64,000 nucleotides of DNA from Piper betle (lineage: Eukaryota > Streptophyta > Magnoliopsida > Piperales > Piperaceae), in assembly GCA_033002965.1 (NCBI GenBank), contig JAURVB010003266.1, positions 1 through 64,000 on the forward strand, read 5' to 3'. Made by a program: the position numbers and the translations under genes. Of this stretch, positions 3,001 through 57,030 are shown piece after piece. The notes below the pieces were generated by a model that was given only the letters and a program-made list of their open reading frames with translations, had not been told where the DNA came from and ran no database searches. Numbering within the stretch: position 1 is the stretch's first letter; each line of letters begins with the position of its first letter.

Positions 3001-3010
3001 CTGGTGCCAT
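1..3010 (-). pseudogene. gag-pol: gypsy gag-pol polyprotein, frameshifted, partial
   Basis: Open for 963 codons from the ATG at 3010. Domains in order: a basic N-terminus (MAPAKQ), retrotransposon gag (roughly residues 245-395), a CX2CX7HXC knuckle (CFRCDEKFVPGHKC), aspartic protease with DSGSSHNF, and RT with VPF-type palm motifs and FFDDILIYSK. The frame ends at 119, where one T is missing from a T run near 131-137. The next frame resumes the post-RT region (a GYYRKF-type motif, then APLSDLLKK) to the window edge. The first 26 codons lie inside the 5' LTR and the PBS is read as LVSEQ. One frameshift in an otherwise open frame suggests moderate age or a sequencing error in the homopolymer. 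Confidence 0.85.
2914..2928 (-). promoter_or_regulatory. Primer-binding site, tRNA-iMet type
   Basis: The minus strand reads TGGTATCAGAGCAGG, the standard plant PBS complementary to the 3' end of initiator methionine tRNA, three bases inside the LTR. It lies within the open gag frame. Confidence 0.85.
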
Positions 3011-3342
3011 CTTGAGGACGAACTTCCTGGATGAAGGGGGATGAAAATCAACAGCAACAATGGTGGAAGAAGGGCTGCAATTTCAGCAACCAAGGGGGAA
3101 GAACCAGGGCGTCCTGGTTCCTTGGGTTCCAAGAAATGTTGGAAGGGGTGGAGCAATCTCCAAAAGGGTGAATTTGATTTTCAAAACAAAGTTGTTACAC
3201 AATTCTGTTACAGCCCCCTTTTGTAGGCATCTTTCCTAGTGAAATTACCCAAACACCCCTACTCAATTACCCCTACTAACAACCCTACTAACAATACTAC
3301 CATTCTACTAACAATGCTAACAATATTCATAACTATTTCACA
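2932..3342 (-). repeat. 5' LTR of the left gypsy element
   Basis: The inner edge is fixed by the PBS: on the minus strand the LTR ends in CCA, then three bases, then TGGTATCAGAGC. The outer edge near 3342 is the best TG/CA end I can see and may be off by tens of bases. The gag start codon (3010) and 26 codons lie within the LTR. Confidence 0.6.
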
Positions 3343-23429: not shown

Positions 23430-26325
23430 TTCTTAGTTGAATGAAATGCTAGATATGAAGGAGATAACTAAAATTTGTTCCATGAATGCGGGTTCAGCAT
23501 CTTGGTTCCTCAGCAGTTCTCCAAGCAAGAACTTTGAAGAACGTCATGCGAAGTTGTTGGTGTATGAGGGGTTACAACACAATGCCACAGTCGCCAAGAG
23601 CTCGGGAGCCTCAATAAATGAGAAGGTGGTAAGTAGCAAAATGACCAAGACAAGGGGGACTCCCCAAAACAACAAGAGCCGTCAGTGGTGCAACTCGGAG
23701 GACTACACTTGATATGGAGCGATGGTTCGAGCTTCTAGTTCGAGAAGGAAGGTTGGGGCCTCGAGAACCTCCTGAGCCACTGTAGCCTGGTGATGAGAAG
23801 AAGGATAAATTTTTCTGCTATCGTCAGCGAGTAAACCACGCTGCCCGCCGAAGCCAAGTGATCATGGAGTCAATTCAAAACTTGCTATACAAGAGTGAGA
23901 TTGACTTCAAGAAGAATAATGATATTTCCAAGCCTGTTCTCATAATGGTCTCTCCCAATTCCAGCAAGAATAGACCAGTCATCGAAGATAGTCACCACCA
24001 AGAGGGAACTGATGAGGTAATTGACACTTTTGTTGAGGTACCCAATCTTTCCCCTACTAAGGAAGCTCGACATCGACACTGGTGTTGGCTATTGAAGAAC
24101 ATTCTCCTCCTTTACCTCTCAAAGACGAAATCATCTATGATTTAGTCTAGCATAAGAATAAGGTCCCTGCACTTGTGAGCATGTTTGATGCTCTATGCTT
24201 GTCCCCAGCTTCCTGAATTATGCTTGAACGTGCCCTGGCCGAAGTTGTTGCAAAAAATGGTGGTGCTCAAACTTTCTTCCAACAGTCAGAAGGCAATCAA
24301 AGACTATGTGACAGATGTGGAATACCTTGTTCGACAACTCCCTGTGCTCAACAAGGTCAATAAAGAGCAAAGGTCGGGACCATTTCAACTGGACCCATAT
24401 AGATGATATCCTAGCGCTACCCAATGGAGTGATCACATTTTTAAACAAAGATTTATGTCATCTAGAGCCCAACCACAATAGGCCATTATTTGTTAGTGTT
24501 GAGCACCAAAATAATGTGATCAGGCGTGCTCTTGTAGATCAGGGAGGATCCATAAACATTCTGCTTCTTCGAGTAGTAGAGGAGATAGGATACTCAGTTG
24601 AGCATCTGGCCCCTACCAATACACAGATATCATATGTTTCCTCTACCGCATGTGACCCAATGAGCAAAATTTCTCTACGCAAATCAATTGGACCTTTCAA
24701 CGTGCAGCATGTATTCCATGTGATCGACTTGGACCCCGTGTTTCATATGCTTTTATCACGTCCCTCGACACATGATCACCGATGTGTGTCATTTCCTGGC
24801 ATCGGTGTATAAAAGATGCACCTTTGAAGAGAAATCATATATGAATTGGGTGGCTAAGAGATCCCTTCATCCTTGAGGAAGCTTATTTCTTTGAGGCAGG
24901 CATTTTCCTATCTGAAAATTTTTTGGTGAAAGCTTGTCAAAAAGCAACCTCACATGTCTACCCAACCATTGTGTCATTACTGGACTTCATTATGCCCGCA
25001 ACAAATTGCCCACCTCCATTGCCCCATAAGGTTCTTAAGTCTCACAAGTCACCTATTGCCTCAAAACCAACCATGAAATCAATTCCTGAAGGCATGCTAG
25101 TACCCCTTCGGGTCCAACTTCATCCTGGAAAGTCAGTGAGGATGTCACCTTCTCATAGATGGTTTTCCTTGATACACAAGTGAAATGGAAGCCTCTTTAC
25201 TTTCTCGCCTCGTGCCCGTGCCCGTATGCTTCTTTCTTTACGGTAGGGGAAAGTACTGCCTTTGGAGAAAGGGGGCAAGGTGATGGTATTTACCCCAACA
25301 GGCTTTCCCAAAGACTGCCCAGAGAACTCTGATGATGAAAGACACTTTGGGCATAACTCTCTCCCTTCATAGTTGCCTACACCCATAGTGATCTGTTACA
25401 AATGTTGACGATGTTCTACCTGTACCGTCATATTATGAGGACGGTGTGACTCTAGCGGCGAAAAGCCTTGTCCAGATTAACTTCGGGACTACCACTGATT
25501 CACGCCCTGTTTACCTTGGCAGTGGTCTAGAAGACTTTGAGTGGCGCCAGATCGTGGACGCGCTACGTGCTCTAAAGACTGTTCACTTGGTCTTATGAGG
25601 AAATACCTGGTCTTTCCCTATAGGTGGCATTGCACTGACTTGCAGGGAAGGCCACCATGAAACCTATCAAACAAGCCAAACGTGCGAAGAAGAAGAATGA
25701 CCAATTCAGCATTTGTGTGGATTTTTGAGACCTCAGCAAGGTATGCCCAAAGAACACATTTCATCTGCCTGTATGGTATGAATTTAGCATGTAATTAGAT
25801 ATTTTGAATTTAGTGGGCCAGCGGGAAAGTAGGGAATGGGCTGAAACAGAGGATAAAAGAGATGAACCGAACTGTAATTGGCATTGGATGAATTGAAATC
25901 TTGATTTTTGTTGTTCTTCTTTGATCTTCTCCCTACTTTCTAGGGTGATCAACAAGGGAGCAAGGACCTCTCCTCTGCTCCCGTCCTCCACCATCCCAAT
26001 CGATCCTCTCCATTCCAATTAGTTTCCAGGCAGGACGTCCTCTCCATGGCACCAGCGAAACGGGGGAACAAGCAAGGAAACAGAGGGAAGGAAATCGTCG
26101 TCGAACTGGGGGAGGAAACGCACACCACTGTACCAGATCTTCCCCTTGACAATGTTGTCAGGCATCTAATGTTTTTGTTCATGGATGACTTTAGCGGATA
26201 TTATCAGATTCATATGGAACCTAAACATGAAGAAAATACACATTCTAGACTCCTGTTAGCATGTATTGCTACCTGTCATGCCCTTTGTTCTAAAGAATGC
26301 CGGTGCAACATATCAATGAGCCATG
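23430..26325 (+). mobile_element. Ty3/gypsy relic, Tat/Ogre-like, gag tail to RT
   Basis: Degenerate plus-strand polyprotein in several frames. Recognisable pieces: a possible gag tail (FFCYRQRVNHA..., about 23810); protease region at 24420-24800 (LFVSVEHQNNVIRRALVDQGGS; the usual D-S/N-G is DQG, then SINILLL and IGPFNVQHVFHVID); the PR-RT linker at 25440-25620 (DSRPVYLGSGL, EEIPGLS); RT start at 25690-25773 (FSICVDF, DLSKVCPKNTFHLP); RT continued at 26128-26325 (PDLPLDNVV, FMDDFSGYYQIHMEP, MPFVLKNAGATYQ). The RT is split by the solo LTR at 25774-26127. At about 26325 the sequence switches to GA 20-oxidase. The part before 23800 is tentative. Confidence 0.7.
25774..26127 (+). repeat. Solo LTR of the 27883-33195 gypsy family, with target duplication
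   Basis: Starts TGGTATGAATTTAGCATG and ends GGAAACGCACACCA, matching both ends of the LTRs at 27883 and 32818 in inverse orientation. Flanked by identical 5-bp CTGTA at 25769-25773 and 26128-26132. It interrupts the RT of the Tat-like relic between HLPV and PDLP. It still carries the LTR-borne gag start (ATG at 26046, MAPAKRGNKQGNRGKE...). Length 354 bp against 376-378 bp in the full element. Classic result of LTR-LTR recombination. Confidence 0.9.
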
Positions 26326-27480
26326 CAATTTCTCGTCGCCCACAGCCATCCACCTTGCCACCGAAGCCTTCTTCTCGTCGCCCACGGCCGTGAAGGAGAC
26401 GATGTAGAGGAAGGTAGTGGAGAGCTGGGGCTACTCACACGGCTACAAGGGCTGGTTTTCCTCCAAGCTGCCATGAAAGAGACCTTCTCCTTTAGATTTG
26501 CCTAGGCCACCCTAAACTCTCTCAACTGGTGCAGGATTACTTTGTCGACGTGCATGGCCGTGACTTCCAACAAACAGGGTTAGTGTACCTTTTGAGTATT
26601 CCAAATTATTATTTCAAATTTTCAACTTCGTTTTCTACATGCATGGGTATTTGTGATTCTACTGATAATCATTCATGATTGTCATGTATGAACATGTTTG
26701 GCAGGGTTGTGTTCCAGGAGTACTGTGAGGAAATGAACAAGCTTGCATTGAAAATCATGGAGCTGCTGGGGTTGAGCTTGGGGTTGGGAAGAAGGCAATT
26801 CAGGGATTTCTATGAGAGGAATGAATCAATAATGAGGCTCAACAAGTACCCACCATGCCATGAACCAGATCAAACTCTCAGCACATGGCTACACAGTGAT
26901 CCTACATCTCTTACCATCTTGCACCAGCAATTGGTGGAGGGTTTGCAGGTGTTTGTAGATGGACAGTGGCAGAAAATCGCTCCTAGACCGGATGCATTTG
27001 TCATTAACATTGGGGACACCTTCATGGTAAGTTTTTATGAGCTATAAATTAAATTTTTGTAAGTTTATCTAGAAGCCTGCCACATTTTCCTTCGAAGCAT
27101 GCCTGCCTGCGTTAATATCTTGGTCATCATACAATTTCGTTTGGAAAAACCAAATGGAGATAAAATTTGATATTCATTTGATGAAATTGTGTGTTCATGA
27201 CCAATGAACGTGCAGGCGTTAACCAACGGACGATACCGTAGCAGCCTTCCGCGCTGTAGTTAACCCTCGAGCTCCAAGGTTCACTCTAACGTTCTTCATG
27301 AACCCTAAAATGGAGAAGGTTGTGAGGGCACCAGAGGAACTAGTAGATGAAGATCACCCCAGTAAATATCCGGACTTCACCTGGTCTGCTCTACTCGACT
27401 TCACTCAGAAGCATCACAGAGCGGACATGAACACGCTAGATGCGTTCTCCGAGTGCCTATCTTCCTCTTCATCCGCTTGA
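26326..27480 (+). pseudogene. GA20ox: Gibberellin 20-oxidase, copy A (5'-truncated, frameshifted)
   Basis: A 2-oxoglutarate/Fe(II) dioxygenase of the GA20ox group, which oxidises C20 of gibberellin precursors in the cytosol. Exon 1 begins abruptly at 26326 (ATEAFFSSPTAVKET) and carries a TAG at about 26405 and a shift at the family signature (SKLPWKET decayed). Exon 2 is 26705-27026, open (EYCEEMNKLALKIMELLGLSL, NKYPPCHEP, first iron ligands HSD), but TGPH is altered to TWLH. Exon 3 is 27216-27480, with a 2-base loss near 27245 that destroys the second iron histidine (CLHRAVV), then MNTLDAF and a stop. All introns keep GT-AG. Paralogous to 39521-40971. Confidence 0.85.
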
Positions 27481-27866
27481 CCAGTTATGTAATATTATGA
27501 AAGCTAGCGTTGCATTTGTGACTTTTGGTTATTGCGATAGCTGAATAAGTAAGGTAGTTCAATGCTGGCTAGTGACATAATATGTGGGATATACATACTT
27601 TCTGTTTTTTGTTGTCTCTAATTGATTATGAAGTGGAATATGAGACAAATAACATTGGCTGAGTACACTTTACGATCTATGTAAGGGTGGCTTGTAATTT
27701 GCGAAGGAGTTGCTCCCTTGGCGTTCTGAAAACTCATATTGACGAGCAATGAAGGGAGAAACAAAATCAACTATTTTGAAAATATATGATCCTGGGACGA
27801 CGGCCCTATTCCCTCCTCGTATCCTTGAACATCTTTGTATGTGCAAGGTCATATGTTTACCAAAGG
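27481..27866 (+). repeat. Duplicated 3' flank of GA20ox copy A
   Basis: Nearly the same as 40972-41367, the flank after copy C. Similarity ends at about 27866 (ACCAAAG), 12 bases before the target duplication of the gypsy insertion. The duplication therefore covered gene plus about 390 bp downstream and predates the insertion at 27883. Confidence 0.85.
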
Positions 27867-27882
27867 TGTCACTTAGGAAAAC

Positions 27883-28258
27883 TGCTGTGGGTTTCCTCCC
27901 CCAATTCGACGACGATCGCCTTCCCTTTGTTTCCTTGCTTGTTCCCTTGCTTTGCTGGAGCCATGGAGGAGACTTCTTGCCTGGAATCTGACGGGAATTC
28001 AGAGGATTTGTGAAGATAATGGAGGACGGGGCAGAGGTGAATCCCTGCTCCTTGGATGATCTTCCTAGAAAATAGGAAGAAGAACAAAGAACAACAACAA
28101 GAAAACAAGAATTCAATTTTATCAAGATTGGTCATTACAGTTCGGTTCTCCCCCTTTTATCCCCTGTTCCAGCCCATTCCCTACTTTCCCACCGGCCCAC
28201 TAAATTCAAACTATGGCGGTTACATCCTGTTTCCTGATTACATGCTAAGTTCATACCA
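27883..28258 (-). repeat. 3' LTR of the gypsy element
   Basis: 376 bp. On the plus strand it runs TGCTGTGGG... to ...TTCATACCA. It includes a copy of the gag start region (ATG at about 27963 on the minus strand). Confidence 0.9.
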
Positions 28259-28338: not shown

Positions 28339-31300
28339 TTAGTCAAGCATTACGGCTGGTAAAATTTTTTGAATGTGCACATCAGTTACCACCGAAGCTT
28401 TCAATTGGGAAACATGGAAAACATCATGGATTTGTGATTCAGCAGGCAATTTCAACTTATAAGCAACTGATCCAATTCGTTGGATGATAGGAAATGGACC
28501 GTAAAACTTGGCAGCAAGTTTGTTGGATTTCTGAGTGCGCAATGTATGTTGTCTGCGAGGCTGAAGCTTCAAATACACTTGCTGGCCTATCTCAAATTCA
28601 ACGTCTCTTCTTCTCAAATCATGGCGGTGCTTCATTCTCAACTGGGCTGCTGCTAGATTTTCTCTCAACTCATGTAACAATTGATCTCTGCTACGAAGAA
28701 GGCTATCAACTTCATTTGTTTTTGCTGTCCCGGGAGTGTATGACAGCAATGTTGGAGGAGGCATATTATACACTGCCTCGAATGGACTCATTTGTATGGC
28801 GGTCTGGAAGCTGGTGTTGTAACAGAATTCTGTCCAAGGCAACCATTTGGTCCAAGTGTGAGGTCGATCTGCTGAAAAACACCTCAAATATTGCTCAAGC
28901 ACTCTGTTAATTGCTTCAGTTTGGCCATCTGTTTGAGGATGGTAAGCTGAACTGTAGTTGAATGCTACACCTTGTAAGCTGAACAACTCCTTCCAAAAAG
29001 AGCTAGTGAAAGTTGGATCTCGGTCACATACGATAGAAGTTGGCATCCCATGTAATTTGAAAATTTCATCAAAGAACAATTTTGCAATTGATTGAGCTGT
29101 GAAAGGGTGCTTAATAGGAAGGAAATGGCTGTATTTTGAGAGTCGATCCACGACCACGAATATGCCATCTTTTGCATTGCTTCTCGGCAACCCACTAATG
29201 AAGTCCATGCTGATAGAGGTCCAAATTTGCTGTGGTATAGGTAAAGGTTGTAGCAGACCAGCTGGTGCTAGAGAAGAGCTTTTGAATTTTTGGCAAGTCT
29301 CACAATTTTGCAAATAACTCACCACATCTTTATACATCCGGGACCAATAGAAAACTGCTCTCAATCGCTTCAACGTTTTCTGAATGCCCTCGTGAGTGCC
29401 ATCATGAAATTCCTTCAATATGGTCGGGATGAGATCCATTTGAGAATTCAAGTAAATCCTGTTTTTATACCGAAAAATCCCATCTTGTAACACCCAATTT
29501 GATGACAGTTTGCTGGCTGCAAATTGCTGCTTAAGGATTGATATCTGCTGATTGGTAGCATAAGCTTTTTTAACCTCTTCCAACCATCTAGGAACAGGGG
29601 TCGACCATGCTGTTAGGCTTGCTGCAAGTAAAGTCAGTGATTCGGAACTAGCTGTGTCGGATTCCTGCCCTTCGAACTGTCTTGATAATGAATCAGCCAC
29701 TTTGTTTTCTTTTCCAGGCTTGTACTCAATCACAAAGTCATATCCGAGCAACTTCACGAGCCACCTTTGTTGAGCGGTTGTGTGGATTTTTTGATCCCAT
29801 AGATGTTTTAAGCTGGAATGATCAGTTCGAACAATAAAAGTCCTTCCCAACAGGTAGTGACGCCATTTTTGAACAGCTAGTACCAAGGCTAACATTTCCT
29901 TTTCATAGGTAGATAGCAGCAGATTTCTACCATTTAAAACCTTACTGAAAAATGCCACGGGATGATTATGTTGCATTAAGACAGCTCCTAATCCTCCTCC
30001 ACTTGCATCACACTCAATCACAAATGGAAGAGTAAAATTAGGCAAAGTAAGGACAGGAGCAGTTGTGAGAGCTTGCTTCAAACTGATGAATGAGTTCTCC
30101 GCCAATTGATCCCAATGGTAAGAATCCTTTTTCAGCAAATCAGATAGTGGAGCTGCAAGGACCGCAAAACCCTTGATAAACTTCCTGTAATACCCTGCTA
30201 ATCCTAAGAAACCCCTTATACTTTTGATCGACTTTGGTGTTGGCCACATCTCAATTGCTGAAATCTTGTCCTTGTCCATACTAACTCCATTTCCAGAAAT
30301 TACATGACCCAAGTATTGGATTTGAGATAAAGCAAAAGAACACTTATCCTTCCTTGCATAAAGTTCATGTGAGAGTAATGCGTTCAAACTCAACTCCATA
30401 TGGCGAAGATGCTCTTCCCAACTTTTGCTGTAAATGAGTATATCATCAAAGAAAACTAATATAAATTTTCTAAGATAAGGGCCAAATACCTCATTCATTA
30501 GAGCTTGGAAGGTAGATGGTGCATTCGATAATCCAAAAGGCATGACTCGAAATTCATAGTGTCCATGATGAGTGCGAAAAGCTGTCTTCTCAACATCAGC
30601 CCCGTGCATTCGTATTTGATGATATCCCGATCTCAAATCCATTTTGGAAAAATAGGTTGTTCCATGTAACTCATCCAACAGTTCATCAATGTTGGGAATG
30701 GGAAATTTATCCTTAATAGTTACCTTGTTGAGAGCTCTATAGTCCACACACATTCTCCAACTTCCATCTTTCTTTTTGACCAAGAGTACTGGAGCCGAGT
30801 ATGGACTCGAGGTAGGCTGAATTATCCCCGCTTCGAGTAAGTCTTTCACTTGTTTTTCTATCTCATTCTTTTGGAAGTAGGGATATCTATAAGGTTTGAC
30901 GGCAACCGGGGATGTTCCTTCTTTCAGCTTTACATGATGATCTTGAGTTCTTCTTGGCGGTAGACCCTTTGGTATCGCAAATACTGCTGCGAATGCTTGT
31001 AGTAACTTGTCCAGCTGTTCAACTTGTAACCTTGATAGGGCTGATTGGAACTGCTGCGAGCTGCTGTCGTCCACCACTTGTAAGTTCATTAACAGCCCCT
31101 GTTTCCTTTTCTTGAACGAACGGGATAATTGCTTCTTACCACACAACTGATTTGGGGGCACAAGCTGACCCTGCAGCTCTATGGTTTTCCCTTTTTCTGT
31201 AAAAGACATGGTAAGTGACTCAAAATTCCAAAGTATAGACCCCAACGTCTTTAGCCACTGAACGCCAAGAACGATATCGATCTCTTCCAGCAAAAGTGCA

Positions 31301-32388
31301 AAGAAATCAATCACTGTCTTGTACCCCGGAAGCTCTAACTCAATGCCAACACACCTGCCCCCACAGTTCAATTTCTCCCCATTAGCAATCTGAACCTTCA
31401 TCCCTTTACTTGTCTCCACCGGTAATTTCAGTTTCTGGACCAAATTCTCATTCACAAAGTTGTGTGAACTCCCCGAGTTGATCAGCACTGTCACTTGATG
31501 TCCCCTCACTCTTCCTAACAATCTCATGGTGTTGGTAGTTAATGTCCCTGCCAATGCATTCAATGAGATTGCCGGTATATCTGAATCTCCCTCTTGATCA
31601 CTGTCCTCTTGTTCCGACAGCTCCTCCTCTCGAATCACCTCAATGACAAACAGCTGCTTGCATTTGTGTCCTGGAAAGAACTTATCATCACATCTGAAAC
31701 AAAGTCCCGCTTCTTTCCTTTCTTGAAGCTGTTGGACACTGAATCTCCTCCCATTGGTAGTCTCTTTAGATGGTAAGTCGACCACCCCATTAGTTTCCTT
31801 CCTGCCTATCCCATAGCTGTTTATTTTGCTAGCTGATCCCACGTTGTATTGATAGTTCTTACTCCTGGGTTTGGTGTTTGCTGGTGACCTCTGAATCACA
31901 TGACACTCTAAATGCCTTGCCAATCCTTGGGCGTCAAGCAATGTTTCAGGTTTTCTAGCTTTTACCTCGATTCTCAGTTGGGAACTAAGACCGCATGTAA
32001 AACTGCTAATCCGTTGTTGTTCTGTCATGTGTCCAGCTCGTGATGCCAATCTATTGAATCGAGCAGTGTATTCTTGGACTGAAGAATCCTGAGTTAATCG
32101 AGTGAGATCTCCGTAAAAATCTTCATAATCCGAAGGTCCAAACTGCAAATTCATGGCCTCTTTCAGCTGCTGCCAAGAAGTCATTTCCTGATGTTGTTGC
32201 AGCATATCGAACCAAATTTGGGCGTCGTCCTCCAAGTGGAAACTTGCTAGTTCAACTTGCAATGCTTCATTGACATTGTGCAACTTGAAAAATTTCTCTG
32301 CTCGACTGAACCATGAGATGGGATCCTTTGCCCCATCGAACTTAGGGAAACTTAGTTTGGATCCCTTCAAGCAATCCTCAATTTGCAC
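28339..32388 (-). pseudogene. gag-pol: gypsy gag-pol polyprotein, main frame
   Basis: About 1349 codons open. Domains: gag (about 10-165), knuckle CFRCDDKFFPGHKC (near 230), protease with INSGSSHNF where DSG is expected (near 300), RT with DLRSGYHQIRM and FFDDILIYSK, RNase H (IECDASGGGLGAV, TDHSSLKHL), integrase with an HHCC finger (HDGTHEGIQKTL, CETCQKFK) and a D,D,E core (SMDFISGLP, CDRDPTF, HPQTDGQTEAINR), and an integrase C-terminus (HDVFHVSQLK). It stops shortly after PAVMLD; beyond the stop the frame reads LEDKVVLQGG, which in relatives follows a chromodomain. The reading frame is entered without its own ATG; the upstream gag part is in another frame (32405-32899). Confidence 0.9.
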
Positions 32389-32404
32389 AATTGGATGAAA
32401 CCCC

Positions 32405-32899
32405 TCATGGAGACATTATGACGAGCAGGTTCCATCCAGATCTGAGTAGATCTTGCTGATACCTTCCCCTTGAAGACATGGTTGGCAATTCCCCTCCAGG
32501 TTTAGCTTGCGGAATCCTTCCTCCCGACATTCTCGCCTGCTCTTCTCTTTGGGTGTTTCTTCGACTATCCTGCCACTGATCATCAATATCCAACCCAAAA
32601 ACAGGAACCCTAATGTGAGATGTCCCAATTCCCTCACGATTATCCAGATTCCCCCTATTTCCAACACCCTCAGCCCTCGATTGCAATAACATTTCGAGTT
32701 TAGCAGAAATTTCAGCAACAGCAGTAATCAAATGATCCTGAACCTGTCTAATTTGAGATAATTCATCCGAGTTTGGTGATGGATTCATACCTCCCTCGCC
32801 TGGCTCTGATACCAAATTGGTGTGGGTTTCCTCCCCCAATTCGACGACGATCGCCTTCCCTTTGTTTCCTTGCTTGTTCCCCTGCTTTGCTGGAGCCAT
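32405..32899 (-). pseudogene. gag: gypsy gag N-terminus, separated by frameshift
   Basis: 164 codons from MAPAKQGNKQGNKGK, starting inside the 5' LTR (ATG at 32899, LTR ends at 32818) and reading through the PBS as LVSEPGEGG. It corresponds to residues 1-200 of the related protein at 1-3010, where gag is uninterrupted. The frame is lost near 32430 and continues at 28339-32388, so a shift has split an ancestral single gag-pol frame. Confidence 0.85.
32799..32814 (-). promoter_or_regulatory. Primer-binding site, tRNA-iMet type
   Basis: The minus strand reads TGGTATCAGAGCCAGG, three bases (ATT) after the 5' LTR. It lies within the gag frame. Confidence 0.92.
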
Positions 32900-33195
32900 G
32901 GAGGAGACTTCTTGCCTGGAATCTGATCGGGAATTCAGAGGATTTGTGGAGATAATGGAGGACGGGGGCAGAGGTGAATCCCTGCTCCCTGGATGATCTT
33001 CCTAGAAAATAGGAAGAAGAACAAAGAACAACAACAAGAAAACAAGAATTCAATTTTATCAAGATTGGTCATTACAGTTCGGTTCTCCCCCTTTTATCCC
33101 CTGTTCCAGCCCATTCCCTACTTTCCCGCCGGCCCACTAAATTCAAACTATGGCGGTTACATCCTGTTTCCTGATTACATGCTAAGTTCATACCA
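32818..33195 (-). repeat. 5' LTR of the gypsy element, containing the gag start
   Basis: 378 bp, TG...CA. The first 27 codons of gag (from 32899) lie in its distal part. The outer end abuts the target duplication AAAAC. Confidence 0.92.
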
Positions 33196-33714: not shown

Positions 33715-34335
33715 GTATTTAACATCTATGAAATTGTTAGATAAATTGTATTCCAAACCAAATTTTATATCGAACACCTTGTCCATAACTAAAATTATGA
33801 GTACTAACAGCTTGTTCGAGCACGAATTCGCTCGATGTTCGACTAAATTCTGGATAATAAACACATGATAATGTGGGATAATTATTAATAAATAATTATT
33901 TATACAATATTAAATAATTATATTGTGTTTTAATTTGAGATATGTATATTAATTATATTAGATAATGTTAATAAATATTGAAGTTAGTCATGATTTACAT
34001 GAGTTAGTTAATGGCTATATTTAATTAATGAATGAATGACATTTTAATCTATTCATTAACTTATTATAATTAATTAAAATAGTAAGATGACGTCTTTATA
34101 TCTTAGTAAGTTAATACGCGTATGTGCTCATGGGTTATTATCTATTAATCGAATCACAATTATAAATAATTACTGTTTGGTTAATTAAAATGTTATAAAT
34201 TCAAGTGTATGAATGTATTATAACTGTTGCATGAATATTTTATTAGTTAAAATATGATTGTTATTAAATTATCGTTCAATTTTTATGATCAATTACATTT
34301 ATGATGTAATAGGAAGTAAAGTGTGATATTAATTA
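33715..34335 (+). repeat. Long inverted repeat arm, left
   Basis: About 600 bp that reappears in reverse orientation at 41385-41905. Shared landmarks: ATGAAATTGTTAGATAAATTG, ACACCTTGTCCATAACTAAAATTATGAG, GTGGGATAATTATTAATAAATAATTAT and TTGAAGTTAGTCATGAT. No coding content. Origin unknown; possibly an LTR or other non-coding part of a transposable element. Confidence 0.8.
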
Positions 34336-36490: not shown

Positions 36491-36495
36491 ATCTC

Positions 36496-37063
36496 ACATG
36501 AAGAAATATTTTGTGACGAGATAGTTTGTAGCATACTTCAAATTTCAATGACAACATTTTCCTCAATTAAAGGTTTTTGTTTTTCAACCATTACTTGCAC
36601 ATATGCATGCAACATCGAGAGTGTAGCGAGAACCCTTTTTCTTTTTTCTGGACAGCAAGAAATCAATATTTTGGTCACTGAAAAACGAAGGCTCAATGCA
36701 TCCCTCAGAGCAATTTCACAGTAAAATCCTAAACGGTAGTACAATGAGTGTGTATTATATAGACTTTCCAAACCCCAGTTTTCTTCGTCACCCTAGTTTT
36801 TTTCATAAATTGGAAATTATGATGTTTAATGGTTATATAAAATAACATGAGCCTTTTCACTGACTCTTCGAAGTACAATGAGCATTTTCGAATCCTAAAA
36901 CGACTTAAATTGGCATCTGTAATAATTTGTCTACATATGAGAATCGTTCATCCTCTCAATTAACACCCCTCATTTAATATTCTTGCCCACTGTAATACAT
37001 GCTCTACATGAAATTCACACAATTATATTATACTATATTATATTATATCATATTATATTATAT

Positions 37064-37103
<40 letters not shown>

Positions 37104-37511
37104 TTTTTTAAAGGTCAAATAAAGCCGCATGTTGTTACAAAGCAATTATATCATTCATGTTCCAGCTAAAATCTTGGCAACTTTTTTTCTCCCTCGATGC
37201 ATTCAGAATCTTGATGCTGTTGTGCAGCTCCAAGTTGGCAGCAAGACAATATAACACTTGGTCACTGACCTTTTGTCTGCTTGATCAGCCTTCTTCTTAT
37301 ATATATAGGGTGTTCTCAATCAGATCTCCCACTTGTGCATTTAAAAATCTCTTCTCCCTCTTTCTATTACACAACTCCTTACTATTCAATATGTCCATGC
37401 CTGCCTCTACATCACCTCCATCTCCATTGGCATGCGATGGAGATGTGGGAATTCCCACTCAATTTGTCTGGCCGAAGGAGGAGAAGCAGGACCTTCGGAC
37501 GGAGAAGGTCA
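36496..37511 (+). repeat. GA20ox upstream region plus start of exon 1, duplicate 1
   Basis: About 1 kb nearly repeated at 38659-39640. It covers the 5' flank, a TTATA/TA microsatellite (37019-37098), a TATA box (TATATATATAGGG, about 37296) and the first 40 codons of the gene. Similarity stops at GGAGAAGGTC in both copies. It holds an RY-like TGCATGCAAC at about 36605. Confidence 0.85.
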
Positions 37512-37529: not shown

Positions 37530-38655
37530 TCTTAAAATTAACCCCTTTTTTTGTGCTTTTGCTGTGTTTTAATTTTTCTTACATTGTAGTTGATTCTGAC
37601 CGCATAATGTTATACTTAATTAAAATTTATTATTGTTATTATTTATTATTAAAAAACTATTAGAATATAATTTTACCTGTAAATTTTTTACGAAGGATGA
37701 TATCCACACCCTCAACATGCTAAAAAAAAATCATAACACCACATTTTGTTGCATGAGAAAAAAATTTAGAAACTTTAATAAATTTTATCATGATTTTATT
37801 ATTCCTTGAAATATAAATTTTGTAAAAAACTATAATATAAAATAAACATTTCACAAGCAACTAACAACCACACAGCAAAACATTTGTAACCTCGACAATA
37901 AACAAACAAGCCAACTAACAGCCACAAGCAAAACAATCAATGGCATGATAACCCAAATAACACCAGATTTTAATTTTATAAAATGAAGCAAAAATAGAGA
38001 AAGGGATTTGGGAGAAAGGCAAGTAGAGAGGGGAAACCTTCGATAGCAATGCTCCAACTATCCTTCGATGGCTATATCCTTCGATGGCTATGGTGGCGCT
38101 CCAAGAATGAAAGGCAGGTGGGACGGAAATCATAAAAAGGGTAGAGAGGGAGATGGTAGGTTGCCGGGAATGTGAAGAGGGAGTAGAGGTAGAGAAAAGC
38201 CCAGCAACAATAGTTTTACAGCTGCGGCGTTATGGCGACGGGGTGAGAGGTAGGAAGGAGGGAGGGAGGGAGCCGCGGCGGCGTTGGGGCGATTCGTCGA
38301 TAGGTGAGAGGGAGGGATAGATCCCGCCCCCGAGCTAGATGTACTTGATTTTAGAAAATATTAGGTACTTTTTTTTAATTATTTTAATATTATGGTATCT
38401 ATTATATTTTATATATTTTTTATTATTTTTAATTTATTTAAAATTAATTATTATTTTTTACTCGAATCGGAGATAAATTAACTTTTAATTACGAGAATGC
38501 CATCAATAATTTCTTTCCCCTCAATTCTCTCACCGGGCACCACCCCTCGCGTTCGGTCTGCCAATACTTTTTCAAAATCAAGTACATCTGGCTCAGGGGC
38601 AAGATCAATTGATCCCTCCCTCCCACCACTCGACGAATTGCCTCAACGTTGCTGC
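37530..38655. other. Spacer between promoter duplicates, with GC-rich patch
   Basis: AT-rich DNA with a GC-rich, purine-biased patch at about 38100-38330 which on the minus strand is CT-rich and resembles a 5' leader. Minus-strand open stretches here (about 70 codons) have no known domain. No gene is called. Confidence 0.4.
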
Positions 38656-38658
38656 TGC

Positions 38659-39520
38659 TCACATGAAGAAATATTTTGTGACGAGATAGTTTGTAGCATA
38701 CTTCAAATTTCAACCATTACTTGCACATATGCATGCAACATCGGGAGTGCAGCGAGTACCCTTCTTCTTTTTTCTGGACGGCAAGAAATCAATATTTTGG
38801 TCGCTCAAAAACAACGGCTCAATGCATCCCTCAGAGCCATTTCACAGTAAAATCCTAAAGGGTAGTACAATGAGTATGCATTATATAGACTTTCCAAACC
38901 CCACTTATCTTTGTCACCCTAGTTTTTTCATAAATTGGGAATTATGGTATTTTGTTATATAAAATAAAATGAGCCTTTTCACTCACTGTTCGATGTACAA
39001 TGAACATTTTCGAATCCTAAAACGTCTTAAATTGGCATCTGTAATTATTGGTCAACATATCAGAGTGGTTCATCCTCTCGTTAACACCCCTCATTTAATA
39101 TTCTTGCCCACTGTAATACATGCACTACATGAAATTCACACAATTATATTATACTATATTATATTATATCATATTATATTATATTATATTATATATATAT
39201 ATATATATATACACACACTTTTTTAAAGGTCAAATAAAGCACGCATGTTGTTACAAAGCAATTATATCATTCATGTTCCAGCTAAAATCTTGGCAACTTT
39301 TTTCTCCCTCGATGCATTCAGAATCTTGATGCTGTTGTGCAGCTCCAAGTTGGCAGCAAGACAATATAACACTTGGTCACTGACCTTTTGTCTGCTTGAT
39401 CAGCCTTCTTCTTTATATATATAGGGGGATCTTACCACCCCATTCCCAATCAGATCTCCCATTTGTGCATTGAAAAATCTCTTCTCCCTCTTTCTGTTAC
39501 ACTACTCCTTACTACAAAAT
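38659..39520 (+). promoter_or_regulatory. Putative promoter of GA20ox copy C (duplicate 2)
   Basis: Second copy of the 36496-37390 flank. TTATA/TA microsatellite at 39138-39212, TATA box TTTATATATATAGGGGG at about 39411-39426, then a CT-rich leader to the ATG at 39521. Proof of activity would need transcript ends. Confidence 0.55.
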
Positions 39521-40971
39521 ATGTCCATGTCTGCCTCTACATCACCTCCATCTCCATTGACATGCGATGGAGATGTGGGAATTCCCACTCAATTTGTCTG
39601 GTCGAAGGACGAGAAGCAGGTCCTTCGGACGGAGAAGGTCATCGTTTCCATCGTCGATCTTAGAGGCTTCCTCTCAGGCGACCCAGATGCGACGACAGAG
39701 GCAACAAGGATGTCGACAGTGCTTGAACAAAGCACGGCTTTTTTCAGATCATCCACCATGGCGTGCCCCTTGCACTGGTTGCCGCCGTCCACCGTGCCAC
39801 CGAAGCCTCCTCGTCGCCACTGCCGTGAAGGAGACGGTGCAGAGGAAGGTAGGGGAGAGCTGGCTACGCACACGGCTACAAGGGCCGGTTTTCCTCCAAG
39901 CTGCCATGGAAAGAGACCTTCTCCTTCAGATTTGCGTCGGCCACCCTAACCTCTCCCAACATGGTGCAGGATTACCTTGTGCACGTGCTTGGCCATGACG
40001 TCCAACAAACAGGGATAGTGTACCTTTTGAGTCTTCCAAATTATTATTTCAAATTTTCAACTTTGTTTTCTACATGCATGGGTTTTTGTGATTTCTACTT
40101 GCTAATATTATGAAATCCACAGACGGTGATCATGAGTGACAATGGAGCAAACCATATCCAGTATTAATTATGACAATTAATTCATTTATATAATTAAGAT
40201 GTAGCAACTGATTATCATTCATGATTTGTCATGTATGAACATGTTTGGCAGGGTTGTGTGCCAGGAGTACAGTGAGGAAATGAACAAGCTTGCATTGAAA
40301 ATTATGGAGCTGTTGGGGTTGAGCTTGGCGTTGGGAAGAAGCCAATTCGGGGACGTCTATGAGAGGAATGAATCGATAATGAGGCTCAACAAGTACCCAC
40401 CATGCCAAGAACCGGATCAAACTCTTGGTACAGGGCCACACAGCGATCCTACATCTCTTACCATCTTGAACCCACAATTGGTGGAGGGTTTGCTGGTGTT
40501 TGTAGATGGACAGTGGCGCTCCTACACCGGATGCATTTGTCGTTAACATTGGGGGCAAATTTTTTCCTGCCACATTTTCCTTCGAAGCATGCCTGCCTGC
40601 ATGAACATCATAGTCATCAAACAATTTCGTTAGGAAAAACGAAGTGGAGATAAAATATGATATTCATTTGATGAAATTGTGTGTTCATGACCATTGAACG
40701 TGCAGGCATTAACCAACGGTCGATACCGTAGCTGCCTTCACCGCGCTGTAGTTAACTCTCGAGCTCCAAGGTTCACTCTAACGTTCTTCATGAACCCTGA
40801 AATGGAGAAGTTGTGAGGGCACCAGAGGAACTAGTAGATGAAGATCACCCCAGAATATTTCCGGACTTCACCTGGTCTGCTCTACTCGACTTCACTCAGA
40901 AGCATTACTGGGCGGACATGAACACGCTAGATGCGTTCTCCGAGTGGCTATCTTCCTCTTCATCTGCTTGA
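39521..40971 (+). pseudogene. GA20ox: Gibberellin 20-oxidase, copy C (all exons, frameshifted)
   Basis: The only copy with promoter, start codon and all three exons. Exon 1 39521-40012: MSMSASTSPPSP, DLRGFLSGDPDATTEAT, then several small deletions (for example around 39710-39740 and 39810) that shift the frame before the LPWKET signature, which survives at the DNA level. Exon 2 40252-about 40553: EYSEEMNKLALKIMELLGLSL, NKYPPCQEPDQTLGTGPHSD (iron ligands H and D), with a deletion after DGQWR. Exon 3 40706-40971: NGRYRSCLHRAVV (second iron His), a one-base loss after MEK, and a stop at 40971. Introns keep GT-AG. It faces copy D tail to tail. Confidence 0.88.
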
Positions 40972-41367
40972 CCAGTTATGTAATATTATGAAAGTTAGCG
41001 TTACATTTGTGACTTTTAGTTATTGGCATAGCTGAATAGGTAAATACTGAAGAAGGTAGTCCAATGCTGGCTAGTGACATAATATGTGGGATATACATAC
41101 TTTCTGTTTTTCGTCGTCTCTAATTGATTATGAAGTTGAATATGAGACAAATAACAGTGGCTGAGTACACTTTACGATCTCGTGTATGGGTGGTTTGTAA
41201 TTTGCGAAGGAGTTGCCCCCTTAGTGTTCTAAAAAAACATATTGACGAGTAGTGAAGGGAGAAAGAAAATCAACTATTTTGAAAATATATGATCCTGGGA
41301 CAACGGCCCTATTCCCTCCTCGTATCCTTGAACATCTCTGGGTGTGTAAGGTCATATGTTTACCAAA
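40972..41367 (+). repeat. Duplicated 3' flank of GA20ox copy C
   Basis: Counterpart of 27481-27866, in the same orientation. Similarity ends at ACCAAAG near 41367, where the inverted-repeat region begins. Confidence 0.85.
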
Positions 41368-41384
41368 GCTTTATATTTTATTAG

Positions 41385-41905
41385 TGACATCATAAATGTA
41401 ATTGATTGTAAAAACCGAACTATAATTTAATAACAATCATATTTTACAGTGATTATTTATAATTATGATTCGATTAATAATTAATAACCCACGAGCACAT
41501 ACGCATATTAACTTACTAAGATATAAAATGTCATCCTTACTATTTTAATTCATTATAACAAGTTAATGAATAGAATAAAATGTCATTCATTAATTAATTA
41601 AATATAGCCATTAACTAACACATATAGATCATGACTAACTTCAATATTTATTAACATTATCTAATAGAATTAATGTACATATCTCAAATTAAAACACAAT
41701 ATAATTATTTAATATTATATATATAATTATTTATTAATAATTATCCCACATGATCATGTGTTTATTATCCAAAATCTAGCCGCACATCGAGCCAATTCGT
41801 GTTCGAACATGCTGTTAGTACTCATAATTTTAGTTATGGACAAGGTGTTCCATATAATATATTGGTTTGGAATGCAATTTATCTAACAATTTCATAGATG
41901 TTAAA
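41385..41905 (-). repeat. Long inverted repeat arm, right
   Basis: Reverse-orientation counterpart of 33715-34335. It abuts exon 2 of GA20ox copy D directly after the splice donor (GTAAGTTTTAA), replacing intron 2 and exon 3. Confidence 0.8.
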
Positions 41906-41911
41906 ACTTAC

Positions 41912-42917
41912 CATGATGGTGTCCCCAATGTTAATGACAAATGCATCTGGTCTAGGAGCGATGTTCTGCCACTGTCCATCTAAAAACACCTGCAAACCCT
42001 CCACCAATTGCTGGTGCAAGATGGTTAGAGATGTAGGATCATTGTGTGGCCTGTACCAAGAGTTTGATCTGGTTCTTGGCGAGGTGGGTACTTTTTGAGC
42101 CTCATTATTTATTCATTCCTCTCATAGAAATCCCTGAATTGGCTTCTTCCCAACCCCAAGCTCAACCCCAGCAGCTCCATGATTTTCAATGCAAGCTTGT
42201 TCATTTCAGTACACCTGGCACACAACCCTGCCAAACATGTTCATACATGACAATCGTGAATGATAATCAGTAGCTACATCTTAATTATATAAAAGAATTA
42301 ATTGTCATAATTAATACTGGATATGGTTTGCTCCATTGTCACTCATGGTCACCGTCTGTGGATTTCATAATATGATGAAGTAGAAATCACAAAAACCCAT
42401 GCATGTAGAAAACAAAGTAGAAAATTTGAAATAATAATTTGCAATACTCAAAAGGTACACTAACCCTGTTTGTTGGAAGTCTTGGCCAAGCACGTCGACA
42501 AAGTAATCCTGCACCATGTTGGCAGAGGTTAGGATGGCCGACACAAATCTAAAGGAGAAGGTCTCTTTCCATGGCAGCTTGGAGGAAAAACGGCCCTTGT
42601 AGCCGTGTGAGTAGCCCCAGCTCTCCCCTACCTTCCTCTGCACCGTCTCCTTCACGGCCGTGGGCGACGAGAAGAAGGCGTCGGTGGCACGGTGGACGGC
42701 AGCAACCAGTGCAAGGGGCACGCCATGGTTGATGATTTGAAAAAAACCGTGCTTCATGCAAGCACTATCGATGGCCTCCGTTGCCTCCGTCGTCGCATCT
42801 GGGTCGCCTGAGAGGAAGCCTCTAAGGCCGACGACAAGGACAATGACCTCCATCCGAAGGTCCTGCTTCTCCTCCTTTGGCCAGAAAAATTGAGTGGGAA
42901 TTCCCACATCTCCATCT
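41912..42917 (-). pseudogene. GA20ox: Gibberellin 20-oxidase, copy D (exons 1-2, inverted)
   Basis: Minus strand. Exon 1 (42917-42465) is open and the best preserved in the cluster: GIPTQFFWPKEEKQ, DLRGFLSGDP-type motif, CMKHGFFQIINHGV, KLPWKETFSFRF, ending QQTG at a GT donor. Its first codons and ATG are missing; the sequence joins another repeat at about 42920. Intron 1 is retained and very like that of copy C. Exon 2 (42228-41912) has a few indels and an early in-frame stop, and ends at a GT donor. Exon 3 is absent. With copy C it forms an inverted repeat of about 1 kb. Confidence 0.88.
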
Positions 42918-42920
42918 CCA

Positions 42921-44360
42921 TTTCACATTTCAAGACATCCCCATATCATAAGCATCATCTAAATCATGCAGTTTAAAATTTTACACAGCACTAATAATAT
43001 GAACAAAATGCAAAATAGTACGCGAATGGGGCATGGATGAGACGAAGAAGAGGAATGAGAGGAAGGCATACCTGGAGGCCACGAAAATGGGAGGGAGAAG
43101 GTGAGGGCTTCCGGCGGCGTCGCCGGCGATCAGTTGCCTCCGAGGGCAGGAAGAGGGAAGGAAGAAAGAGGGGATCAAGGGCTGCCGTCGCCGGTGGCAG
43201 GTGCTTGCCGGCGTGGTGGGGGAGGCGCCGCCGGTGGGGAGAAATGGGCAAGTAGGAGAAGGAGGGGACTGGGGGCATTTTAGGTATTTAAGAGTATAGT
43301 GGGGGGGGGTATATAGGGAATTTTGGGTAGTGTTAGGGCTCGTTAAGGTATTTAGTGATTAGGGTTGATTGTATACAAGTGATTAAATGTCTCCAATTTT
43401 TTTTAAAAAATTTAGCTTACTATATATAGATTATATACCACTAGATTATTAATGTTAGTTGACTAGACTTTATATTTACTTGATCCTTCCTACCCTTGTC
43501 AGTAGTGGTTCTATTTTTAAATAACCGATCGTTGATCGCGATGTTAGCGACCATTGGCAGACCCTCCCATGACCAAATTTGGCCTTGGAATGACTTAATG
43601 ACCCTAGCCATTAGCCATTGCTAGGCATTTGGGCAGTGACTAAATATTTATTTTTCTTTAAAAATAATGGTTGGCAACGACAACACAAGGGACAACCAAA
43701 TCCCACCACCGGCAGCATGATCAACCTATCCCAAATTAGATCTAGCTTAAGCTCTCTAATGCCAATATAATTTACTTTAATTCAATTACCAAATAAGAAG
43801 CCTTCAAGAAGTGACAATAACTTCAATATTGTATTTAGGTGAAGATATTGACCAATTTTTGAAAACATGCACAAAAAATTTTATTTAGGGAACAGGCAAA
43901 AAGGATGAAGAAAATGACCTTTATGTACCAAAAAGAAATTTGCCTGAGTAGTTTATGTAGCAAATTGCAAGTACATAAAAAATCATCCAAAAGTATTAAC
44001 AAATTTAGATTCCAACAATAGTAAAAACAACCTAAATACTTCACTAAACAACCTAAGCAGTTCATGTAGCAGGGGTTGGAGCTTTTATAATTCCACAAAG
44101 AGCAATTACAAGGTGCTGTTCTTGAAAGAAATTATTTAGATCACCACCGGTGATAGAACTGTAACACCTTTCTTGCACTGAATCGAAAGAACTAGCAGAA
44201 TTCAATGTGCACCTTTTGTCAGGCCCTGGGAAGAGAGAAGTTTCTTGGTAACACCATGAACAACCTCAAAAGTGCTTCACTGTAGTTTCTTAACTCTAAT
44301 GGCCATTCTCTCTAACCCTTTAAACCAAGGAAGATCCTTACCATTTCAATTTCATACATA
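42921..44360 (-). repeat. Duplicated block L, copy 1 (leader-like exon and F-box tail)
   Basis: Repeated in the same orientation at 55346-56670. On the minus strand: an F-box/FBD-type C-terminal relic (44205-44345), AT-rich spacer, a CT-rich GC-rich stretch at 43270-43076 like a 5' leader ending in a GGTATGCC donor, then about 150 bp to the edge CATTTCACATTTCAAGACAT (plus strand), where it abuts GA20ox copy D. Indels distinguish the copies. Confidence 0.8.
44205..44345 (-). pseudogene. F-box/FBD protein C-terminal relic
   Basis: The minus strand reads EMVRIFLGLK, then after one shift RMAIRVKKL, then FEVVHGVTKKLL. This matches the usual end of plant F-box/LRR-FBD proteins (EMVRIFL..KGLERM.IRVKK...LL.LPRAS). 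Contains a stop and a shift. Probably the C-terminus of the broken gene whose N-terminal part is at 45480-46330, or an independent copy. Confidence 0.55.
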
Positions 44361-45479
44361 TATAATTTTAAATAGTTCTTTGTAAAAATCTTCTCATTGC
44401 ACGTGTAACGTGATGCATTAAGAAATCCATCTATCTCTATATTTTTCAGTGACTTTCTGTACGGTGTTGGGCTTTCCAAGCACTTCAATGTGCAAAGGAA
44501 ACTTCCATGTGCATGAAAAACATGTAGAATGCATGAAGCTTTCTTACTTATAATTTACAAAGAGTTGGTTTTAATGTGAATACGAGATGTAAAATATTTT
44601 CACAAAAAATTTCCCCCTTTTCTTGTGTATTTTTTAAAGAAATTTTGTGATGATGAAAATTTCTAAGGCGACTACTTGGGGAAGTTATATTTTGTAGTAA
44701 AATACATTGAAAATGGATTAACAATTTAGTGGAAGATCAATGCCTTTGTCATAAATTACCACATATAGATTTCATAGATTTTTCATTTTTTTTCATGCTA
44801 ACCAAACAGAGACAAAGGGAACATGAGATAAATTAACCAACCAACAATCTCTATACTACTTATATTTTTCTCTGAGGTTGATTTGGATGAACATGGAATC
44901 AATAATGTCTAATTTCATATTTTCAAGATTGGGAAAAGCCATAATGAGTAGTCCAACTGCTTGTATCTGAGTTGATGCTAGGTCTGATGTTAAATGCAGG
45001 TATGTCGTCTTCATTGAGTTCAGTGGAGAATGTTTCCATTGGCAGAAAATGACCTGTGCAAATCAAAGTATAGACAGAAAAGTATAAAATAAGGAAAGAA
45101 CATTTTTGCACACCATGAGATAGCAATCATCTCTGTAATTACAATCAACATATGATTATGAGCAGTAAGGGTAATTTGAAGTAAAATACTTTTTTGCAGG
45201 AACATTTATGTTAACGATTCAATATGTAAAGTATGGTATACTTGATATGAATATGCTTTCTACTGTATTATTTTCCTTCCCAGCTAATCAACTTGCATAC
45301 CAATATTTTAACCATCCATTACTCTCAAGGCATACAATACCAATTATATGATATGACAAAATTTTTTAACTTGCACTACTAACTTCTTACTAAAAGCTAA
45401 ACATTGAGCAAAGAAGGTAGATCAACAGCATACTAAAATGCAGAACCAGTTCATTTGAAGTTTGACAGGTTGAAGGCCG

Positions 45480-53869: not shown

Positions 53870-55346
53870 TCTCTTGCAGACATCTTCCTCCGAACATTTG
53901 CTGCCATATCCCATCTACCATCACTAGCATAAAAGTTTGACAGTAACATGTGATAGCCTGAATGGTCTGGTTCCAATCTTACAAGGCCCTACCCTGAGAT
54001 TGTTGAGGATCCTGAAAGCAGTCAATAATGCAGCACAAACACGGTGACCAGCAGGGATGGGCATTCGGCTTATAAATTCCAGTGCTTTCTCTAAGTTTCC
54101 CTGTCTACATAGCAGGTCCACTATGAATGCATGATGCTCCATCCTGGGGACAACACCATATTGTTCGAACATACATCTAAACGTTTTCATAGCTTCTTCA
54201 ACCAACCCATCATGACCACAAGCAGATAGTACGGAAACAAATGTTATATGATTAGGTTTTAGAGAAGAACTAATCATCCTATTGAACATTTGGAGCGCTT
54301 CCTTTCGATAACCATGAGTTCCATAAGCTGCAATTATTGAACTCCAGGCGACTACATCCTGCAATGGCATTGCTTAAACTTCCACACTTGAATAGAGATA
54401 GATTAATGCAGCACCAACAAATAATTTACCTTCAAATCCAGGAAAAAACAAGTATCCATGGACGCGTAGAGCCTGTTTCAAAATTCTTAGTAGGGAGGAT
54501 GAAGCCAAGATCTTTACAATGATGACAGCATCAGGTGACACACCATTGGCCATCATACGACGAAACACATTTAGCGACTGATTTGCTAAGCCATTTTGAT
54601 AATATCCACTTATGAAAGCAGCCCAGAGGACAACATCGGCACTTCGTTGAAGATCTGTACAGCTTCCTTAAAACAAGAACACTTCATATACATGTCAACC
54701 AGTGCTGTGCAAACTGCAATTTCACACTCAAAGCCCTTTTGAGTGGCCAACTTGTGTATTTTCCTACCTTGGGCCAAATTCCTTGTTACTCCACAAGCTT
54801 TCAAAACACTTACAACTGTAACTGAGTTGGGTTCAAATACCCTTTCAACCATTTCATTATATAAATCTGTAACCCTTCATTGGGCATCTTATTATGAACA
54901 TAAGGAGCTATCATACAGCTCCATGTTATCACATCCCTAACAACCATGCTTTCAAAATGATTCTTTCTGTAAAGAACATACTTTGGCATACAAATTCAAC
55001 AAAGCATTGTTGAGACACAAGTCCGAAGTAAGGCCCCTCCTAACAATAAATCCATGACAAGATTTTCCTAGTTCTGACATGCCCAAGTGTGCACAAGCCG
55101 ACAACATATTCGTGAGGGTAACAGAATCTTGTACATTCCCTTCCCTGAGACTCATCTGGCGAAAAAAACTCAATGCTTCATTTGAACACCTATTGATGTA
55201 CAAAACCAGAGACTATTGATGTCAATAAAGCAGCATCTGGCTCCAAAAATTCATCAAAAACGCGGCAAGCATCTGCCATTCTCCCGCATGATGCATACAT
55301 TTCAATCAAAGCCAAACCCACATACAAATCAGAACATCTAGCAGCG
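53870..55346 (-). pseudogene. PPR protein (PLS/E type), 5'-truncated and frameshifted
   Basis: Minus strand. PPR proteins bind organellar RNA; each 35-residue motif forms a helix pair. In order from 55346: LYVGLALIEMYASCGRMADA and VFDEFLEPDAALLTSIVSGF; NEALSFFRQM...TLTNMLSACAHLG; SDLCLNNALLNLYAK; then a gap; VFEPNSVTVVSVLKACG, ALVDMYMKCSCFKEA; MANGVSPDAVIIVKILAS; DVVAWSSIIAAYGTHGYRKEAL, PNHITFVSVLSACGHDGLVEEA; and the E region (RMEHHAFIVDLL, then LLSNFYASDGRWDMAANVRR and LGLSSIE in other frames). At least five shifts. The N-terminus, with any targeting peptide, is cut off at 55346 where block L copy 2 begins. Confidence 0.85.
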
Positions 55347-56670
55347 CCATTTCACATTTCAAGACATCACCATATTATACATAAAACCTCACATTTTTGT
55401 CCATCACGAGAAATTAATAACTTCACGTTCAATTAGTACAATTAGTAATTAACTCAACACCATTTCACATTTCAAGACGTCACCATATCATGAGCATCAT
55501 CTAAATAATGCAGTTTAAAATTTTGCACAACACCAATAATATGAACAAAATGCAAATAATATGCGAATGGGGCATGGATGAGGTGTACAAGAGAATGAGA
55601 CGAGGCATACCTCAAGGCAACGAAAATGGGAGGGAGAAGGTGAGGCTGCCGGCGGCGTCACCGGTGATCCTTTGCCTCTGAGGGCAGGAAGAGGGAAGGA
55701 AGAAGGAGGGGGTCAAGGGTTTCCGTCACCGGTGGCAGGTGCTTGCTGGCGAGGTGTGGGAAGGCGCCGCTGCCAGTGGAGAAGGGGTAGAAGGAGGCGA
55801 CAAGGGAGGGGGAATTTTAGGCATTTGGCTTATATATTGTATAACATTTTTATTGTATATAGATTATTAATATAGATTGCATACAGATAGATTATTAATT
55901 TGATCAATATGTATGAAAATATATCATTTTTATTATATATAGATTATTAATATAGATTGTATATAGCTAGATTATTAATATTTGTCAACTAGACTTTACC
56001 CGATCCTTCTACCCCTTGCTGACAGTGGTTGTATTTTTAAATAGCTTAAGCTCTCTAATATCAATATAATTATTTTCAATTCAATTACCAAACGAGAATT
56101 CTTCAAGAAGTGACAATCACTTCAAGATTGTGTTTAGCTAAGGATATTATTTAATTTTTAATAATACGGACAGAAAATTTTATTTAGCAAACTAGTAAAA
56201 ATGACAAAAATAACATTTATGTGCCAAAAAGAAGTCTAACAGAGTAGTTTTTGTGGCAAATTGCAAGTAATTCAAAAATCAGCCAAAATAAGTAACAAAT
56301 ATAGATCCCAACAATAGCAAAAACAGCCTAAATACTTCACTAAATAGCCTAAGCAGTTCTTGTAGTTGGGGTTGGAGCTTTAATAATTCCACAAAGAACA
56401 ATTACAAGCTGCTGTTCTTGAAAGAAGCTTAGATCACCACCCGTGATTGAATTGTCTCACCTTTCTTGCACAGAATCGAAAGAACTAGCAGAATTCAATC
56501 TGCACCTTTTGTGAGCCTCTGGGAAGAGAGAGAAGTTTCTTGGTAACACTATGAATTATCTCAAAAATGTTTCTCTTCAGTTTCTTGGTTCTAACGGTCA
56601 TTCTCTCTAGCCCCTTTAAACTAAGGAAGATCCTTACCATTTCAATTTCGTACATTTATAATTTTAATTA
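55346..56670 (-). repeat. Duplicated block L, copy 2
   Basis: Same block as 42921-44360. The edge CATTTCACATTTCAAGACATC occurs at 55347 against the PPR fragment and again at about 55451. The leader-like CT-rich stretch (minus strand) is 55800-55615 with a donor GGTATGCC; the F-box tail is 56505-56645. On the minus strand the block lies immediately upstream of the PPR pseudogene. Confidence 0.8.
56505..56645 (-). pseudogene. F-box/FBD C-terminal relic, second copy
   Basis: Minus strand: MVRIFLSLKGLERMTVRTKKLK, then FEIIHSVTKKLLS, better preserved than at 44205. No F-box N-terminus was found upstream on the minus strand in 56650-57700. Confidence 0.55.
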
Positions 56671-57030
56671 GTTCTTTGCAAATAACCACATGCGCATTTT
56701 ACAAGTAGAAAAACCATAAATTTTGTTACTGAAGATTATGAGAAGAGGAGGTAATTTGTAATAGCATTTTGATATACAACTTCATGTTTGAAAAGCTTTA
56801 CGCATTATGACAACATTGCTAAGCTAAATTAGTACAAGATTACCTATTTCGTACGTCATAACATTAATACATCTTGTTATTTCTCTGTTTGTTTGTGTTG
56901 TTATATGATTGTTTAGTACACTCCTGGAGTGTTACTCGACCGTGTTAGAGTCGGCACTCTTCTGTTTCTTCTGCCTTGCAGAATGCTTTGCATCTGCTAG
57001 AAAATAACTAATCGAACTTTCTTATTAAAA
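56671..57030. other. Non-coding, no gene seen
   Basis: No supported feature. Confidence 0.35.

Follow-up and report, generated by a model that had tools for sequence, protein, structure and literature searches.

Four gibberellin 20-oxidase-like (GA20ox-like) copies, A to D, lie in the window, the 64,000-nt stretch of DNA analysed here, which comes from a 527-Mb genome assembled in 11211 contigs. Plant height is set by GA20 oxidases. Copy A (26345..27865, + strand) is a broken gene truncated at its 5' end, and copy B (36493..37511, +) consists of a promoter and the start of exon 1 only; both serve here as comparison copies for C and D, the inverted pair that is our subject. Pfam recognizes DIOX_N in exon 1 of D (1e-20) and 2OG-FeII_Oxy in exon 2 of A (1.8e-18), and many of the 120 relatives listed (of 1477 matches) for E, an intact copy outside the window, are named gibberellin 20 oxidase, the best among those listed being 64% identical to E. 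Because of these domains and names, the copies can be assigned to the GA20ox family of 2OG-Fe(II) dioxygenases; none of the 51 solved structures among the matches listed is named GA20ox. Pieces of 32814-33195, in opposite orientations, border copy A on either side (25799-26127 and 27879-28258). Two long retroelement frames, open from stop to stop, were recognized by eye at 28339-32415 (-, 1358 aa) and 119-3082 (-, 987 aa), and their DNA is 71.5% alike over 18-2303.

Copy C (38658-41368, +) extends from a promoter to a 3' region similar to that of A. Its promoter and 5' leader (38658..39520) have a duplicate in copy B (36493-37384, 88%) and are likewise conserved upstream of E, F and T1, elsewhere in the genome; around the TATA-like box TATATATATA (39414-39423), C, B and E share a conserved promoter sequence. 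Exon 1 (39521..40013) begins with an ATG at 39521 and is frameshifted, and its read-through translation gave no match in a Pfam search. Intron 1 (40014..40251) has GA at the donor position (40014-40015) where A, D and E have GT. Exon 2 (40252..40558, the end being approximate) carries a frameshifting 8-nt gap, and a deletion has removed its 3' border with intron 2. Exon 3 (40706..40971) is one base short and ends in a TGA at 40969-40971. The 3' region (40972..41368) resembles A as far as 41368 and has AATAGG in place of the overlapping AATAAA pair of E. With exons 1 and 2 thrown out of frame by gaps, GA as the donor of intron 1 and the boundary of exon 2 with intron 2 deleted, C is unable to code for an enzyme, as the sequence-only reading of this DNA had stated.

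Copy D (about 41905-42917, -) is reduced to exon 1 (42465..42917), which is truncated at its 5' end, intron 1 (42228..42464) and exon 2 (41912..42227), which has a 5-nt deletion, a 1-nt deletion and an in-frame TAA; an in-frame start and exon 3 are lacking. Neither C nor D thus retains an intact reading frame, given their frameshifts, stop and lost splice donors, and the lesions of the two copies differ. Between them lies a 0.5-kb repeat (41387..41905, -), an inverted copy of 33718-34307 (92-93%), which starts about eight bases within intron 2 of D and contains, at 41574, the sole + strand AATAAA found in 40900-42920. The DNA that adjoins D on its other side (42918..44386, +) is not GA20ox-like and is similar to 55460-56682 in two blocks (76% and 84%); the latter stretch stands beside a PPR-like pseudogene, recognized by eye at 53924-55350 (-), with stops in each frame. 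The 18-base sequence CCATTTCACATTTCAAGA occurs in three exact copies, at 42918, 55347 and 55460, with a different left flank at each, which resembles a mobile-element end.

The inverted repeat formed by C and D is present much as the sequence-only reading had described it. The C arm (39566-40557, +) aligns with the D arm (42916-41920, -) over 1007 columns with 89.8% identity and 25 gap positions (E = 0), and the two arms, of about 1 kb each, stand tail to tail. They are separated by a spacer at about 40558-41904 that measures 1.35 kb, close to the 1.4 kb first estimated. The arms were also said to be alike even in the intron, and intron 1 is in fact the most similar part, with a gap-free identity of 95.7% as compared with 90.2% in exon 1 and 91.3% in exon 2.

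We calculated pairing energies for the two arms and for a single RNA that would span them. The C and D arms pair at −1700.9 kcal/mol, whereas ten shuffles of D gave −430.3 to −383.8, so the pairing is not a matter of chance, and the longest predicted helices comprise 79, 52 and 46 bases. In the predicted fold of a 3511-base RNA from 39450 to 42960, 920 of the 992 bases of the C arm pair with D, at an energy of −2019.4 kcal/mol versus −951.5 when D was shuffled once. A single RNA spanning C and D would therefore be predicted to fold into a long hairpin, as had been proposed, and this hairpin would be very stable. A search of 38600-44500 for known RNA families gave no match at the Rfam gathering score.

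A search of the genome for GA20ox copies gave at least 49 matches. The intact relative E (C9562:461530-459917) can be read as a full GA20ox of 362 residues in three exons, and its contig carries partial GA20ox copies besides. The donor of intron 2 in E (C9562:460478-460200) is GC (ATG|GCAAGT), while A and D have GT there. A second group occupies contigs C8199, C117, C499 and C4629, where one copy, T1 on C8199, is open across all three exons, and two more distant paralogues are found on C453 and C8089. The genes of the second group form arrays of recent duplicates (T1, T4 and T5 are 99.6-99.7% alike), and short inverted fragments of exon 1 and promoter lie between the gene copies. Inverted exon-1 fragments of about 275-353 nt (85-92%) occur in all four array contigs examined; the closest inverted pair there is about 2.8 kb apart (C499) and that on C4629 about 10 kb apart. 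The 20 kb surrounding E showed no inverted pair of GA20ox sequences, and C-D is the longest and closest pair among those seen. Inverted fragments are common in this GA20ox family, so the orientation of C and D by itself tells little, which weakens the silencing role proposed for them.

D had been described as a reversed copy of exon 1, intron 1 and exon 2, a description that needs correcting. In the arm region C and D are 91.5% identical (986 columns), and the comparison with an intact GA20ox that the sequence-only reading had proposed gave 91.8% for C-E and 93.2% for D-E, with A-D at 93.6% and A-E at 94.1%. Since A and E both match D better than C does, a simple inverted duplication of C was rejected, with intron 1 as the exception that still hints at a shared past. 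The tree of the arm region is nearly a star, in which C+D has a support of 62 and a branch of 0.0036 as against terminal branches of 0.052 and 0.038. With T1 as the outgroup, eight sites group C and D against E, three group D and E, and two group C and E. Five of the eight C+D sites are in intron 1, which makes up 215 of the 964 columns (P = 0.016, uncorrected). A common origin or a conversion event may therefore lie behind some of the likeness of C and D. Over the whole arm, these comparisons indicate that C and D are no fresh inverted copy, although a shared origin or conversion of their intron 1 is possible.

We then considered the changes found in one copy only. At codon positions 1, 2 and 3 these number 12, 12 and 15 in C, 6, 8 and 10 in D, 5, 9 and 6 in A, and 2, 3 and 7 in E, and the comparison of positions 1+2 with position 3 gave P = 0.28 (C), 0.26 (D), 1.0 (A) and 0.053 (E). 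Codon-position bias in the changes unique to C or D is thus not significant, and by this measure both appear to behave like dead genes, with a borderline contrast in E that is suggestive at most. The possibility that constraint has kept the arms alike was rejected, since only intron 1 stands out and no significant codon-position bias was found in C or D. On C, unique changes are fewer in intron 1 (3 of 170) than in the exons (39 of 657; P = 0.029, uncorrected), an unexplained deficit that simple neutral decay does not predict and that is absent from D (6 of 173 in intron 1, 24 of 642 in the exons). A methylation-type spectrum was also considered, but the counts of C>T and G>A changes in their sequence context (10 in C, 10 in D, 7 in A and 3 in E) are too low to be informative.

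The capacity of the arms for silencing was examined with 21-mers. Perfect pairing with D extends over 164 of the 972 21-mers of the C arm, of which 58 occur in the mRNA of E, 8 in T1 and none in the C453 and C8089 paralogues, making E nearly the sole good target found. Irrespective of pairing, 214 of the 993 21-mers of the D arm and 116 of the 972 of the C arm are found in E mRNA. A functional GA20ox had been named as a potential target elsewhere in the genome, and intact E does share perfect 21-mers with both arms; the perfect small-RNA matches to an intact relative that a locus of the soybean GmIRCHS type calls for are thus available here. Two preconditions for silencing hold, namely the 21-mers shared with E and, in C, the retention of the family promoter together with the loss of AATAAA. 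Perfectly paired windows are nevertheless densest in intron 1 (69 of 218, versus 82 of 714 in the exons), and this counts against the proposed role, as a spliced target lacks intron 1.

The explanation we favor, and consider quite probable, is that C and D are neutral debris of a duplicating GA20ox family that is built like a hairpin silencer. Both would be pseudogenes of a lineage-specific, heavily duplicated family, brought tail to tail by duplication and rearrangement at the DNA level, with foreign DNA past D and a repeat in the spacer, and now decaying separately without constraint. We infer that the pair has no conserved RNA role: any transcript running through C and D would be incidental, and its most likely outcome would be 24-nt siRNA and methylation at the locus itself, not control of intact GA20ox genes. 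The nearly star-like tree, in which C-D identity does not exceed C-E or D-E, the differing lesions, the lack of significant codon-position bias in unique changes, the inverted exon-1 fragments on all four array contigs and the lack of an Rfam match are all consistent with such decay. Less readily accommodated are the likeness of C and D in intron 1 and the five shared sites there, the scarcity of unique changes in intron 1 of C, the borderline result of the test for constraint on E, and a predicted hairpin that is very stable and has 21-mers in common with E.

A rival explanation is a hairpin silencer of the kind that the sequence-only reading proposed. Read-through from the C promoter into D would yield a foldback that Dicer would cut into 21-22-nt siRNAs, and these would lower the mRNA of intact GA20ox genes such as E in the manner of GmIRCHS. 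The predicted fold, the 58 paired 21-mers in E mRNA, the conserved promoter and the loss in C of E's AATAAA all speak for it, and since the splice donors of C are lost, intron 1 would remain in its RNA. Polyadenylation signals in plants are loose, and with the AATAAA at 41574 in the spacer as well, read-through is uncertain. Moreover, the arms are no nearer to each other than to E and show no sign of being kept alike, and the distant paralogues share none of the paired 21-mers. On balance we regard active silencing by this route as unlikely.

Alternatively, C might be transcribed from its own promoter on the + strand and D from beyond 42918 on the - strand, with overlapping or trans-paired RNAs giving nat-siRNAs that act mainly in cis. 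The tail-to-tail arrangement suits such convergent transcription, as does the GC-rich stretch at about 43060-43250 past D, where a possible donor follows CCTCCAG on the - strand (by eye), but the similar stretch at 55460-56682 adjoins the broken PPR-like gene (also by eye), and we think this quite improbable. That the inverted arrangement is an artefact of assembly or haplotypes is hardly credible. The assembly is indeed fragmented, and some array copies on different contigs are so nearly identical that they might be alleles or collapsed repeats, but the difference between C and D is about 8-10%, their lesions are distinct and the DNA bordering each is not the same.

Under the explanation by neutral debris, the locus mainly offers a clean example of how a heavily duplicated family leaves inverted pseudogene pairs, possible seeds of RNA regulators. 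A bolder idea, to which we give very little credence, is that the pair is a young proto-silencer, in which 21-22-nt siRNAs from the C-D hairpin would dampen E and the inverted exon-1 fragments would do likewise for their array neighbours. If it were true, the lineage would be using RNA from its own gene remnants to regulate a family of growth-hormone enzymes, and a natural hairpin against GA20ox would amount to a heritable switch for height and to a new RNA regulator observed at an early stage.

Several known systems resemble the C-D pair. The rice glutelin locus Lgc1, like C and D, is a tail-to-tail gene pair, and it gives a read-through RNA. For some miRNA genes the proposed starting point is a pair of neighbouring pseudogenes from a single family in inverted orientation (PMC3237417); C-D has neither a short conserved foldback nor an Rfam match. 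Maize Tpd1 (Teosinte Pollen Drive) also forms a long hairpin, with siRNAs that might target a protein-coding gene in trans, and it differs in its measured 22-nt siRNAs, mapped cleavage sites and genetic effect (PMC11390486). GmIRCHS at the soybean I locus is described as a CHS pseudogene duplicated tail to tail in a 1,087-bp inverted repeat, and deletions that involve it restore pigment (PMC13051633). It resembles C-D in being an inverted repeat of a pseudogene of about 1.1 kb that is preceded by a promoter and has intact relatives elsewhere, and differs in its 78-bp gap and DnaJ-gene promoter, as compared with 1.35 kb and the family's own promoter. In rice, hairpin small RNAs are described for two inverted pseudogene pairs, whose arms measure 154-185 nt and are 83% and 96% identical (PMC2708354). 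Like C and D these are adjacent paralogous pseudogenes on opposite strands, though the rice arms carry small-RNA reads and those of C-D are longer (about 1 kb). The rule given there (paralogous pseudogenes on opposite strands within 2 kb, a stem over 100 bp and a loop under 2 kb) also describes C-D, with its 89.8% identical arms, 1.35-kb spacer and 920 of 992 bases paired in the predicted fold.
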